From: a bacterium
GTDB taxonomy: Bacteria > Cyanobacteriota > Sericytochromatia > S15B-MN24 > VGJW01
Direction: 5' to 3'
NCBI GenBank assembly: GCA_021781555.1
Contig: JAJXWQ010000003.1
Location: forward strand, 59,723 to 92,854
Length of the DNA: 33,132 nt
Below the pieces are notes generated by a model, which saw nothing but the letters and a program-made list of their open reading frames with translations, did not search any database and was not told the DNA's origin. Below are positions 8,340 through 29,135 of the stretch, piece after piece (positions within the stretch are counted from its first letter, which is position 1; each line of letters opens with the position of its first letter). The position numbers and the translations under genes were made by a program.

Positions 8340-8440
8340 AGTGCTCCCGGTTTGAATGGATCGAGCCCGATGAGTCAAACGGGGCCCGGTTGCGCAGCGC
8401 AGCGACCGCGCAGAGGGACCCGGTCAACCTGAAAAAGGCC
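8336..8440 (+). repeat. Dispersed hairpin repeat, copy A (full length)
   Basis: About 105 bp, nearly identical to 19076-19180, starting CTAGAGTGCTCCCGG and ending in AAAAAGGCC. The conserved core occupies 8387-8413 on the minus-oriented side. The arms around AACGGGGCCC (8378-8387) and GGGACCCGGT (8415-8424) pair. It fills the junction between convergent genes: its left edge contains the uup stop codon and its right edge encodes the last residues of the DUF362 protein. Confidence 0.85.
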
Positions 8441-17096: not shown

Positions 17097-17122
17097 GCGC
17101 TTCGAAGCGAAGCTCGAATCGA

Positions 17123-17160
17123 TTTGCAGCTGGGCCGGGTCCCTCTGCGGCGTGATCGCA
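17123..17160 (+). repeat. Dispersed hairpin repeat, degenerate fragment H
   Basis: The stretch TTTGCAGCTGGGCCGGGTCC followed by CTCTGCG matches the left end of the repeat (TTTGCAGTTTGAACGGGTCC, CTCTGCGCGG) with a few changes, and the core is lost. It lies between the REC-kinase and the aminopeptidase. A small palindrome GCTTCGAAGC (17099-17108) precedes it. Confidence 0.5.
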
Positions 17161-17200: not shown

Positions 17201-18250
17201 ATGAACTTCTCGCTGCTCAAGACCCTGTGTGAAACACCCGGCATCGCGCACCGGGAGGACCCGATCCGCGAACGTGTGCGTGCCGAGATGGCTCCCCTGG
17301 TAGACGAACTCTCGATCGATGCGATGGGCAACATCATCGGCCGCAAGAAGGGCCGAGGCGGCCCCACGGTTATGCTTGCAGCCCACATGGACGAGATCGG
17401 CTTCATCGTCAAGGCCATCGACGACCGTGGCTTTGTCCGGGTACACCCCATCGGTGGCTGGGATCCGCGGGTGATGATGGCCCAGCGCGTGCACGTGCAC
17501 GGGTTTTCCGGCGAGGTCCTCCTCGGGGCGCTCATGGCCGCAGCCAAGCCGATCCACCTCCTGACGCCCGAGGAGCAGAACAAGCCTCTCAAGGCCGAGG
17601 ATTTCTACTTGGACCTCGGTCTGCCAGCCGAGCGGGTCAGGCAGGTGGTCGAGATCGGGGACATGGTGACGATGGCGCGCACGGCCGAGCAGATCGGCGA
17701 TTGCGTGATCAGCAAGACGCTGGACGACCGGGTGGGCGTCTTCGTGATGCTGGAGGCACTGCGGGCCTGTCGAGAGCACCAGGTCGAGATCCTCGCGGTG
17801 GCGACGACCCAGGAGGAAGTGGGCCTGCGCGGTGCAACGACGGCGGCCTATGCGCTGCAACCCGACGTCGGCATCGCCCTGGATGTGACCCTGGCCAACG
17901 ACCTTCCCGGCCAGCTCGAGCACGAGCAGATCTCACGCCTCGGAGCTGGGTGCGCGATCAAGATCATGGACTCCTCGCTCCTGTGTCACCCCAAGCTGGT
18001 CCGGCATTTCCGAGACCTGGCGGAGCGACACCAGATCAAGCACCAGCTCGAGATCATGACCCGGGGAGGCACCGATGCCGGTGGCATTCAGCGCTCGCGG
18101 GGCGGGGTCCCGAGCTTCGCACTGTCGGTCCCGACCCGCTACGTGCACACGGTCAACGAGATGGCCCACGTGGGCGACATCGAGGCCACCATCGCGCTCC
18201 TGGCTCGCTACCTGGAGGACGCGCATACCCGGGACTACCGCTACACCTAG
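17201..18250 (+). CDS. M42-family metallo-aminopeptidase
   Basis: 349 residues. Di-metal aminopeptidase of the M42 (TET/FrvX/YsdC) family that trims peptides in the cytosol, typically as a dodecameric tetrahedral shell. Metal and catalytic residues: His62 and Asp64 (AAHMDEIGF), Asp175/Asp176 (KTLDDRVG), catalytic Glu205 and metal Glu206 (TTQEEVGLRGA), Asp228 (ALDVTLAND), His316 (YVHTVNE), and the GGTDAGG loop (289-295). Length is normal for the family. Substrate preference cannot be assigned from sequence. The ATG has only a weak ribosome site (AAAGAAAG). Confidence 0.92.
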   Translation: MNFSLLKTLCETPGIAHREDPIRERVRAEMAPLVDELSIDAMGNIIGRKKGRGGPTVMLAAHMDEIGFIVKAIDDRGFVRVHPIGGWDPRVMMAQRVHVHGFSGEVLLGALMAAAKPIHLLTPEEQNKPLKAEDFYLDLGLPAERVRQVVEIGDMVTMARTAEQIGDCVISKTLDDRVGVFVMLEALRACREHQVEILAVATTQEEVGLRGATTAAYALQPDVGIALDVTLANDLPGQLEHEQISRLGAGCAIKIMDSSLLCHPKLVRHFRDLAERHQIKHQLEIMTRGGTDAGGIQRSRGGVPSFALSVPTRYVHTVNEMAHVGDIEATIALLARYLEDAHTRDYRYT

Positions 18251-18256
18251 CCAGTC

Positions 18257-18288
18257 ACCGCCGCAGAGGGACCCGTTCAAGCTGAAAA
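18257..18288 (+). repeat. Dispersed hairpin repeat, truncated copy B
   Basis: Only the right end is present: CCGCAGAGGGACCCGTTCAA followed by GCTGAAAA matches the end of copies A and C. It lies seven bases after the aminopeptidase stop and before the DUF5069 promoter-like TAGACT (18294-18299). Confidence 0.65.
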
Positions 18289-18329
18289 TGTTCTAGACTA
18301 CGCAAGCCGGTGTCGGCAAGGAGGTACCA

Positions 18330-19075: not shown

Positions 19076-19180
19076 CTAGAGTGCTCCCGGTTTGAATGGA
19101 TCGAGCCCGAGGAGTCAAACGGGGCCCGGTTGCGCAGCGAAGCGACCGCGCAGAGGGCCCCGTTCAAACTGCAAAAGGCC
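19076..19180 (+). repeat. Dispersed hairpin repeat, copy C (full length)
   Basis: About 105 bp with the same boundaries as copy A (CTAGAGTGCTCCCGG to GCAAAAGGCC) and only a few differences. Here the arms AACGGGGCCC and GGGCCCCGTT pair perfectly. It sits at the end of the minus-strand peroxiredoxin gene, in the convergent junction with DUF5069. Confidence 0.85.
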
Positions 19181-20740: not shown

Positions 20741-20801
20741 ACCTTTGGCAGTTTGAACGGGTCCCGCTGCGCGGTCGCTGCGCTGCGCAACCGGGACCCG
20801 T
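20741..20801 (-). repeat. Dispersed hairpin repeat, copy D1
   Basis: Opposite orientation to copies A and C. Core at 20767-20793; outer stem ACGGGTCCC / GGGACCCGT pairs perfectly. It begins right after the SEC-C stop. Confidence 0.8.
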
Positions 20802-20814
20802 ATCTTTATCGCTT

Positions 20815-20882
20815 GGAACGGGTCCCTCTGCGCGGTCGCTGCGCTGCGCAACCGGGACCCGTTTGACTCCTTCGGCCTGATT
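20815..20882 (-). repeat. Dispersed hairpin repeat, copy D2
   Basis: Second unit in the same orientation as D1, core at 20828-20854, perfect ACGGGTCCC / GGGACCCGT outer stem, followed by the TTTGACTC flank seen in other copies. Together D1 and D2 fill the convergent junction between the SEC-C and membrane-protein genes. Confidence 0.8.
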
Positions 20883-22280: not shown

Positions 22281-22360
22281 TGCAGTTTGAACGGGTCCCT
22301 CTGCGCGGTCGCTGCGCTGCGCAACCGGGCCCCGTTTGACTCCTCGGGCCCGATCCAACC
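22281..22360 (-). repeat. Dispersed hairpin repeat, copy E1
   Basis: Same orientation as D1/D2, core at 22301-22327. Left flank TGCAGTTTGAACGGG, right flank CCCCGTTTGACTCC then TCGGGCCCGATCC. The outer stem has one mismatch (T opposite C). Confidence 0.8.
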
Positions 22361-22462
22361 GGGCCCCGTTTCAATCAAGAACGGGTCCCTCTGCGCGGTC
22401 GCTGCGCTGCGCAACCGGGCCCCGTTTGACTCGTCGGGCCCCGATCCCTTCAAACCGGGAGC
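22361..22462 (-). repeat. Dispersed hairpin repeat, copy E2
   Basis: Tandem neighbour of E1, core at 22391-22417. Its far flank (CCTTCAAACCGGGAGCAGAC) is the reverse complement of the left end of copies A and C, so the element is full length on that side. It lies between the 3' end of the methyltransferase gene and the promoter of the membrane-protein gene. Confidence 0.8.
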
Positions 22463-27441: not shown

Positions 27442-28425
27442 TTATTCCTCCCACTTTCCGGCGTACTCGGTCGACTCGCCGGGCTCGCCCGCGGCCATCG
27501 TGAAGCCATAGGCGCGCAGGCGCTCGATGACTTCTTCGGCCGACTTCTTGCCAAAGTTCTTGATATCCATGAGCTCGCGCTCGGTCTTCTTGAGCAGGTC
27601 GCCCACCGTGTAGATGTTGGCCCGCTTGAGGCAGTTGTATGCGCGGACCGACAGCTCCAGCTCCTCGATCGACATGTCGGTGGGTTGCGGCCGGCCGACT
27701 TCCTCCCGGACAGCCCTCGAGCCACCGCCGATGGCCTCGCGAGCCAGGTCGGCGAAGAAGTCGAAGTGCTTGATCAGGGTATCGGCGGCGCGGCTGATCG
27801 CCTCGGTGGGATCCGTCGCGCCGTTGGTCCACATCTCGAGGATCAGGCGGTCGAAGTCGGTCATCTGGCCGACCCGGGTGTCCTCGACGGTGTAGTTGAC
27901 CTTGCGGATCGGCATGAAGATCGAGTCGATCGGAATCACGCCGACGGCCTGGTGCGGCTTGCTGTTGGCCTCTGCGGTGCGGAAGCCCTTGCCCTTCTCG
28001 ATCTGCAGCTCCACCTCGAGAGAGGAGCCCGCGTCGAGGGTGGCGATCGGCCAGTCGGCGTTGATGACCTCGACGTCGGCATCCGCGACGATATCGCCGG
28101 CGCGAACCACGCCCTCCTTGTGGACCGAGATGTGGGCAGTCTTGAGGTCGCCGGCGACCAGCTTCACGACGACGCCCTTGAGGTTGAGGATGACGTCAAC
28201 GACGTCCTCGACCACGCCCGGGATGGTGGTGAACTCGTGCGGCACTCCCTCGATGCGGATGGCCGTGATGGCCGCCCCCTCGATGTCGGAGAGGAGGACC
28301 CGCCGCAGCGCGTTACCCAGCGTCGTCCCGTATCCGCGCTCAAGCGGCTCCGCGACGAACTTGCTGTACGTCAGACCTTCTTCCGTCTTGTGGGTCTCGA
28401 CGCACTCAATTTTCGGCTTATCCAT
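27442..28425 (-). CDS. rpoA: RNA polymerase alpha subunit
   Basis: 327 residues. N-terminal assembly domain (LERGYGTTLGNALRRVLLSDIEGAAI) and C-terminal domain that contacts UP elements and activators (LELSVRAYNCLKRANIYTVGDLL, KNFGKKSAEEVIERLRAYGF). ATG 28425 (MDKPKIECVETHK). The in-frame sequence upstream belongs to a hairpin repeat and should not be taken as coding. The ribosome site is weak, and a 77-bp gap with a hairpin separates it from rpsD. Confidence 0.97.
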   Translation of the reverse strand: MDKPKIECVETHKTEEGLTYSKFVAEPLERGYGTTLGNALRRVLLSDIEGAAITAIRIEGVPHEFTTIPGVVEDVVDVILNLKGVVVKLVAGDLKTAHISVHKEGVVRAGDIVADADVEVINADWPIATLDAGSSLEVELQIEKGKGFRTAEANSKPHQAVGVIPIDSIFMPIRKVNYTVEDTRVGQMTDFDRLILEMWTNGATDPTEAISRAADTLIKHFDFFADLAREAIGGGSRAVREEVGRPQPTDMSIEELELSVRAYNCLKRANIYTVGDLLKKTERELMDIKNFGKKSAEEVIERLRAYGFTMAAGEPGESTEYAGKWEE

Positions 28426-28452
28426 ACTAAGGTTTGCTCTCTTCTCCTGTGA

Positions 28453-28495
28453 CGACCGCCCCTGCGCGGTCGCAATGCTGCGCAACCGGCGGTCG
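28453..28495 (-). repeat. Dispersed hairpin repeat, copy F with replaced outer stem
   Basis: Core at 28462-28488 with only three bases changed in the middle. The outer arms are CGACCGCC (28453-28460) and GGCGGTCG (28488-28495), a perfect 8-bp stem unlike the ACGGGTCCC stem of the other copies. It sits in the rpsD-rpoA gap inside the ribosomal operon. Confidence 0.75.
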
Positions 28496-28502
28496 ATGGC
28501 CC

Positions 28503-29135
28503 CTACCGCGAGTAGTACTCGACGATCAGCTGTTCCTTGATGGGAGAGTCGATCTCCTCCCGGGTCGGCACGGAAAGAACCTTGCCCACGAGTTGTTCGT
28601 GGTCGGCGGTCAGCCAGTTGGGAACGCGGGCCGCGGTGCCGGCTGCGACGATGTTCTTGACGAAGTCCTTGGAACCCTCTGCGACGGTGACGACGTCCCC
28701 CGTGCGCACGCGGAAGCTCGGGATGTCGACCCGGCGCTTGATGCCGTTGCGCTCGAGCTGGAAGTGGCCATGCTTGACCATCTGGCGGGCCTGCGGACGA
28801 CTGGCGGCGAATCCGAGGCGCACCACGACGTTGTCGAGGCGTCCCTCGAGGATCTGCAGCAAGGCCTCGCCGGTGACGCCTACCTTGCGGGTGGCAACCT
28901 CGTAGTACCCGGAAAACTGGCGCTCGCCGATGCCGTAGAAGCGGCGGGCCTTCTGCTTCTCCCGAAGACGGATGCCGTACTCGGTCGGCTTCACGCGGGC
29001 CTGGCCGTGCTGACCGGGGCGGTAGTTACGGCGCACGATTCCGCACTTGTTGGAATTGCAGCGCTCGCCCTTGAGGAAGAGCTTGATGCCTTCGGCGCGG
29101 CAAAGGCGGCAGACTGGATCGGTATAACGGGCCAT
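28503..29135 (-). CDS. rpsD: 30S ribosomal protein S4 (uS4)
   Basis: 210 residues. [15 protein letters not shown] with a four-cysteine zinc motif (C9, C12, C26, C31: the zinc-containing S4 form) and the S4 RNA-binding domain ([30 protein letters not shown]). S4 is the primary 30S assembly protein and the alpha-operon repressor in E. coli. It lies between rpsK and rpoA, 11 bases after rpsK. Confidence 0.97.

Follow-up and report, generated by a model that had tools for sequence, protein, structure and literature searches.

The hairpin in the gap between rpsD and rpoA probably belongs to a REP-like family of mobile, non-autonomous palindromes, as an old copy that has become fixed and now sits in its operon as a passive intercistronic hairpin. 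We refer to this hairpin as copy F and to the whole 33,132-nucleotide stretch of DNA that was analyzed as the window. Members of the family carry a conserved 26-nt core on an outer stem; the stem sequence differs between lineages and the arms stay complementary. The family appears to be caught at two ages in sister species, with hundreds of copies in one and a handful in the other, and an older subfamily seems to survive at one conserved operon site. It also illustrates clearly how a stem can covary around a core that is conserved in sequence. For rpoA itself, the comparison provides a lead, not a result.

Copy F lies directly behind the rpsD stop codon and ahead of the rpoA ribosome-binding site, all on the minus strand. 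The 77-nt rpsD-rpoA gap (28426-28502) houses the hairpin together with that ribosome-binding site (AGGAG). Upstream in the transcript, rpsD (28503-29135), encoding ribosomal protein S4, ends with a TAG stop at 28503-28505 immediately before copy F; downstream, rpoA (27442-28425), encoding RNA polymerase alpha, starts with an ATG at 28425. As transcribed, copy F reads CGACCGCC, the core GGTTGCGCAGCATTGCGACCGCGCAG, a single G, and GGCGGTCG. An earlier reading made from the sequence alone had described a perfectly paired stem at 28453-28495 around an almost unchanged loop core, and both descriptions are accurate. The arm CGACCGCC (28453-28460, minus strand, the 3' arm in the rpsD-rpoA mRNA) and the arm GGCGGTCG (28488-28495, minus strand, the 5' arm) form 8 of 8 pairs with 28461 as a single unpaired base, and the conserved 26-nt core of the repeat family (28462-28487, minus strand) differs from the commonest core in the window at 3 of its 26 bases. 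This core contains a loop and an inner helix, which is either TTGCGC/GCGCAG or, alternatively, GGTTGC/GCGACC.

Folded as RNA, the 45-nt hairpin reaches -25.2 kcal/mol (z -2.44, with 4 of 200 shuffles equally good), and folded as DNA it reaches -15.7 (z -2.62, 3 of 200 shuffles). Scanning 28380-28560 for intrinsic terminators, defined by a T run after a hairpin, gave 0, and no promoter-like site was seen near copy F. Since hairpin F has no U-run, it is not a terminator. Rfam 15 gave 0 matches within the window at the gathering score. By eye, the core segment CGACCGC within 28453-28474 can also pair with the 3' arm GCGGTCG, which gives an alternative small hairpin in F; a hairpin of the CGACCGC/GCGGTCG type is possible in the sister species too, with one G-U pair.

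The repeat family was searched for in 59 genomes, including the 3.82-Mb genome that holds the window (G000), a sister species of the same genus (G001), and a member of another genus of the same family (G004). The pattern TGCGCGGTCGC-N(0-8)-TGCGCAACC, which defines an exact core, occurred 359 times in G000, where the reversed control pattern occurred 0 times; there were 5 exact cores in G001, 2 in G004, and none in 56 of the 59 genomes. The covariance model R1 gave at least 150 matches in G000, 30 in G001, 7 in G004, and 2 in G002, with no match in 16 others of 20 genomes. The nearest relatives of the RpsD protein are those of isolate DBS2-1.bin124 (98%), a groundwater 'Cyanobacteria' MAG (77%), and a Tanganyikabacteria MAG (70%), which would place the genome near Candidatus Tanganyikabacteria/Sericytochromatia, a group that we take to be the non-photosynthetic side of Cyanobacteriota. 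We found no description of this repeat family in the literature, as far as the accessible parts of the papers extend.

Besides copy F, the window contains six full copies of the bulk type. Two lie on the plus strand: the copy at 8377-8425 has the stem ACGGGGCCC/GGGACCCGG with 7 of 9 pairs (two mismatches), and the copy at 19117-19165, within a CTAG-bounded unit of about 100 nt, has the perfect stem ACGGGGCCC/GGGCCCCGT. On the minus strand, the copy at 20755-20803 has the perfect stem ACGGGTCCC/GGGACCCGT and is in tandem, at 61-nt spacing, with the copy at 20816-20864, which has the same stem; the copies at 22289-22337 and 22379-22427 each carry one stem mismatch. The stem ACGGGTCCC/GGGACCCGT, which had been taken as the reference from which F departs, is thus correct for two of the six (20757 and 20818), but the other four differ from it. 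Two inverted copies of the right half of the repeat, at 17122-17152 and 18259-18289, lie 1.1 kb apart and flank an M42 aminopeptidase gene (17201-18250). They were considered as transposon ends and rejected, the enclosed gene being a peptidase.

To what extent the stem is held as a structure was assessed in two alignments. Alignment A1 contained 78 of the 81 distinct copies, the 3 with another core length being excluded. Both-side changes occurred in 8 of 15 pairs, and the covariation score was 0.114 versus 0.055 for shuffled alignments (0 of 500 as high) and 0.010-0.048 when the partners were slid. Because the slid versions themselves reach 6 to 9 both-side-changed pairs, it is the score and the paired cells that carry the covariation argument. 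In alignment A2, with 18 copies hand-picked for diversity, 7 pairs showed both-side changes and the score was 0.285 versus 0.099. Shuffling whole right arms among copies gave the same picture. For 26 rows from G001, G004, G002, and copy F, 192 of 234 cells were paired versus 155.5 (sd 5.4) after shuffling (0 of 2000); the rows exclude 8 of the 30 G001 matches (not 49 nt, or cut) and include 2 of the 7 G004 and 1 of the 2 G002 matches. G001 alone (22 rows) gave 162 of 198 cells versus 142.2 (0 of 2000). For G000 (69 rows), 502 of 621 cells were paired versus 481.6 (largest 497; 0 of 2000), and without F the figures were 494 versus 478.9 (largest 493; 0 of 2000). The effect in G000 is small; a G-A mismatch at arm position 5 (counted from 0) is frequent among bulk copies, being present in 76 of 126. 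None of these controls removes the kinship among copies.

Re-paired stems were also seen directly in the relatives: CGAGCCCC/GGGGCTCG, GATGGGCCC/GGGCCCATC, ACGCT/AGCGT, and CCGCC/GGCGG. The inner helix GGTTGC/GCGACC showed no covariation, and the core is conserved as sequence. Since the outer arms covary while the core sequence is conserved, the fold is constrained. The sequence-only reading had argued that the folded form is selected, and the pattern found was covariation (8 of 15 pairs, 0 of 500) and not mismatches placed at random, which leaves that argument standing. Selection on pairing holds for the family as a whole, in which the arms covary; the G-A mismatch in 76 of 126 copies speaks against a stem that is always paired.

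The stem of copy F is not private to this genome. The orthologous gap of the sister species (stretch L115) carries the same 16 stem bases, the arm CGACCGCC being identical, with a changed loop (ACACAGCGATC for CATTGCGACC). With the same stem at the same site in both species, the element most likely entered the rpsD-rpoA gap in an ancestor of both, and the stem would have stayed unchanged after they diverged. In G002, G003, G004, and G009, the rpsD-rpoA gap is much shorter and has no element. The F stem can be recognized by the 14-mer CGCCGGTTGCGCAG. G000 and G001 contain it once each, at F itself and at the F orthologue, respectively; elsewhere it occurs six times in G004, five times in G002 (two of them element-like), and once in G009. 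Four of the 14 matches (3 in G002 and 1 in G009) were set aside as chance, with no core after the pattern. Its stem marks copy F as a relic of an older subfamily with CGCC stems, the form seen in two other genera; the GCCC-stem bulk would be a later, genus-level expansion, to which the copy numbers and the empty sites described below point. Copy F is without the left half of the bulk unit, and its own insertion boundary is therefore not visible.

These comparisons bear on two other origins for the F hairpin. If a bulk-type copy at the rpsD-rpoA locus had changed its stem by stepwise compensatory mutation, the outcome would be the same core on a wholly different and perfectly paired stem, as in F. 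We consider this route very improbable: the sister species has the same stem, G004 and G002 likewise have CGCC/GGCG as their inner stem bases, and F is without the flanking halves of the bulk unit. The earlier proposal that the stem was swapped at this locus is therefore not supported, given the 16 identical stem bases in the sister species and a CGCC stem that is the form of other genera. A chance palindrome unrelated to the repeats might come to mind for a short element in a G+C-rich genome; its probability is negligible, as the core scores 59.7 bits against the family model (F being one of that model's 18 sequences) and an orthologous element is present in the sister species. In the core of the G001 orthologue of F (L115 1141-1190) lies GCGATCGC, which is the cyanobacterial HIP1 octamer.

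Filled and empty sites in the sister species show how other copies are distributed. Copy F alone, of the window copies examined, is common to G001. The copy at 19119 corresponds to a clean gap between matching flanks in G001, where there is no copy, and the pair at 22291 and 22381 likewise corresponds to a clean gap (63 nt there versus 227 nt here). For the remaining copies only one flank aligns: at 20757/20818 the matching G001 gene end is followed by unrelated sequence with no copy, and at 8379 there is no copy beside the matching G001 gene. The reverse case is found in the nusG-rplK gap. G000 reads CTATCTAGGAGCAC, and G001 splits these bases by about 102 nt that carry the element (L265, L266), the insert sitting between CTATCTAG and GAGCAC. 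The filled site has CTAG on the left and ATAG on the right, and the empty site has a single CTAG. Taken as a sign of target-site duplication, this pattern comes from one pair only, and it also fits a target motif of the IS200/IS605 type.

The units of the bulk type were characterized in a sample of the window's own genome that comprised, in addition to the window, 34 stretches totaling about 563 kb of the 3.82 Mb. All were picked for holding exact-core copies, except two on the window's own contig, and genes were called with a home-made hexamer caller. The bulk hairpin is part of a longer, CTAG-bounded unit of about 100 nt. Of 126 copies, 34 have CTAG at position -52 relative to the core and 29 have it at +26, and no other position has it in more than 4; over the whole 595,550 bases the tetramer was counted 297 times. 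Among 79 left-facing cases, 25 had a gene's stop codon at the edge of the unit, as did 14 of the 70 right-facing ones. These stops were TAG in 34 of 39, versus 200 TAG stops at 491 called gene ends. The bulk units thus insert at CTAG sites, often at the TAG stop codon of a gene, a site at which insertion need not break the gene.

With respect to neighboring genes, 33 of the 126 copies lie in convergent and 11 in divergent gaps; among codirectional gaps, 32 copies have the same and 23 the opposite orientation, showing that the family keeps no fixed strand relative to genes. The remaining copies are inside gene calls (17, several of them at gene-call edges) or at stretch edges (10). Copies in both orientations and at gene ends are the behavior expected of a mobile DNA repeat. 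Of 42 pairs of close copies, 41 are arranged head-to-tail; most are spaced 59-63 or 104 nt apart.

As to how these units move, in the reading that we favor a trans-acting mobilizing enzyme would recognize the folded single strand and read the core, and the pairing of the stem would be maintained by this enzyme and not by regulation of rpoA. No mobilizing enzyme was identified in the genome, in which the only Y1 transposase gene (L193:1456-1884 and L192:1456-1884; also L191 and L190) is not flanked by the element. This IS200-like gene is single copy and lies beside a gene that resembles, by eye, a nucleotide-sugar epimerase gene in both G000 and G001, with no element within about 1.5 kb in G000, G001, or G004. 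The first His of the HUH motif is replaced by Q in G000, G001, and G002 and is intact in G004. The protein scored 63.2 bits against NF033573 (transpos_IS200; cut-off 55) and 29.4 bits against NF047646 (REP_Tyr_transpos; cut-off 80). A RAYT was considered and rejected as mobilizer: Y1 is below the RAYT cut-off, it is not flanked by copies, and its gene is also present in G002, with 2 element-like matches only, and absent in G003. Alternatively, the units could be miniature derivatives of a classical DDE transposon that has terminal inverted repeats and duplicates a 4-bp CTAG target, and not parts of a single-strand (REP- or IS200-like) system. The units are bounded by CTAG on both sides, and by eye there is subterminal inverted similarity (GGTTTGAAYGG/AGTTTGAACGG). 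However, this subterminal similarity is all that was seen of MITE-type terminal inverted repeats, there is no match between AGTGCTCCC and GCCTTTTGC at the outermost ends, and the stretches examined showed no parental transposon. We consider this mode of movement rather unlikely.

The element works like a REP or a miniature element but, by the definition in PMC8266576, is not classed as one. Like a GTAG REP or REPtron, it is a high-copy, mostly intergenic palindrome of the 20-50 nt class (359 exact cores here, with 17 of 126 copies inside called genes). Preference for convergent and unidirectional gaps and termini that supply TAG stops to genes are shared with GTAG REPs, as these are described in the available portion of PMC3733652. 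Stems that change yet stay paired are likewise known from REPs (available portions of PMC2817692 and PMC3116915), and clustering of copies is common to both. Unlike GTAG REPs, the hairpin has no GTAG at its foot: GAGTCAA precedes the bulk stem and GGGCCAT precedes F, where the nearby TAG is the rpsD stop; in G004 and G002, the short stem follows a GGAG. Unlike REPtrons, there is no RAYT above the NCBIfam cut-off and no transposase gene flanked by copies. The tandem arrays are head-to-tail (41 of 42 close pairs) and not alternating as in REPs, and sequence conservation lies in the core, not in the stem. REPINs share the compensatory changes across a hairpin of which another part is conserved (PMC3116915, in the part available), but REPINs conserve their inverted REPs around a variable spacer, whereas the present family conserves an inner core within a variable flanking stem.

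Non-autonomous elements of the IS200/IS605 type resemble the unit in two respects, a hairpin close to the ends and a short invariant motif (here CTAG) on either side. They differ in that the single Y1 gene found here is unlinked to the element and has its HUH motif altered in G000, G001, and G002. The small dispersed repeats (SDR) of cyanobacteria, reportedly very small mobile repeats of the same phylum, would be comparable in kind.

Copy F would have spread like the other copies and would now be only a passive hairpin in the alpha-operon mRNA. Such a hairpin might protect the 3' end of rpsD and mildly separate the translation of rpsD and rpoA, as E. coli REPs do. Two observations are not predicted by a purely passive role. 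Identity across the gap between G000 and G001 (72 of 77 aligned bases) exceeds that of third codon positions (182 of 211 in rpsD and 271 of 328 in rpoA, or 83-86%). In addition, the four copies in gaps of translation genes are all in sense orientation; besides F, these are in nusG-rplK (G001), in rpsB-tsf (G004), and before rpmF (G004). The latter gene presumably is rpmF, the name being taken from its first residues and a plsX-like neighbor.

The alternative is that F was co-opted as a regulatory RNA, acting as a decay barrier, a processing site, or a translational uncoupler that sets the rpsD:rpoA ratio. The sequence-only reading had likewise suggested RNA processing or differential expression of rpoA, with a loop that a protein or ribosome-associated factor might recognize. 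Apart from the sense-strand hairpins in the other translation-gene gaps, this would fit the stable RNA fold without a U-run and the 16 stem bases kept in the sister species while the loop changed. Intercistronic hairpins stabilize upstream mRNA in E. coli operons, according to the accessible text of PMC5927463, and F could protect the upstream message in the same way. An effect of such an mRNA hairpin on rpoA is plausible. Against such a role, only two sequences are compared, and at 84% identity, the local value for third codon positions, all 16 stem bases would be kept by chance in about 6% of cases, so that the retention is weak evidence. The rpsD-rpoA gap of G002, G003, G004, and G009 has no element, the rpsB-tsf gap has none in four of the five genomes examined (G000, G001, G002, and G003), and the family as a whole has no fixed strand relative to genes. 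We therefore regard co-option as unlikely. In a further version, one dedicated factor, common to these Sericytochromatia-like bacteria, would read the 26-nt core with its two mutually exclusive inner helices, and ancient copies would be kept as sense regulatory hairpins in rpsD-rpoA, nusG-rplK, and rpsB-tsf and before rpmF. If true, a mobile DNA repeat would have turned into an operon-tuning RNA with an exchangeable stem and a fixed head; we consider this quite unlikely, and a passive hairpin left by an old mobile element remains the reading that we prefer.

The two G004 sites have their own arrangements. In the rpsB-tsf gap (L260), the element lies directly behind the rpsB TAG and has an expanded inner region, and a truncated second copy follows before the tsf ribosome-binding site. 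At L213:23-120, two tandem short-stem copies (ACGCT/AGCGT) lie directly upstream of the start of the rpmF-like gene.
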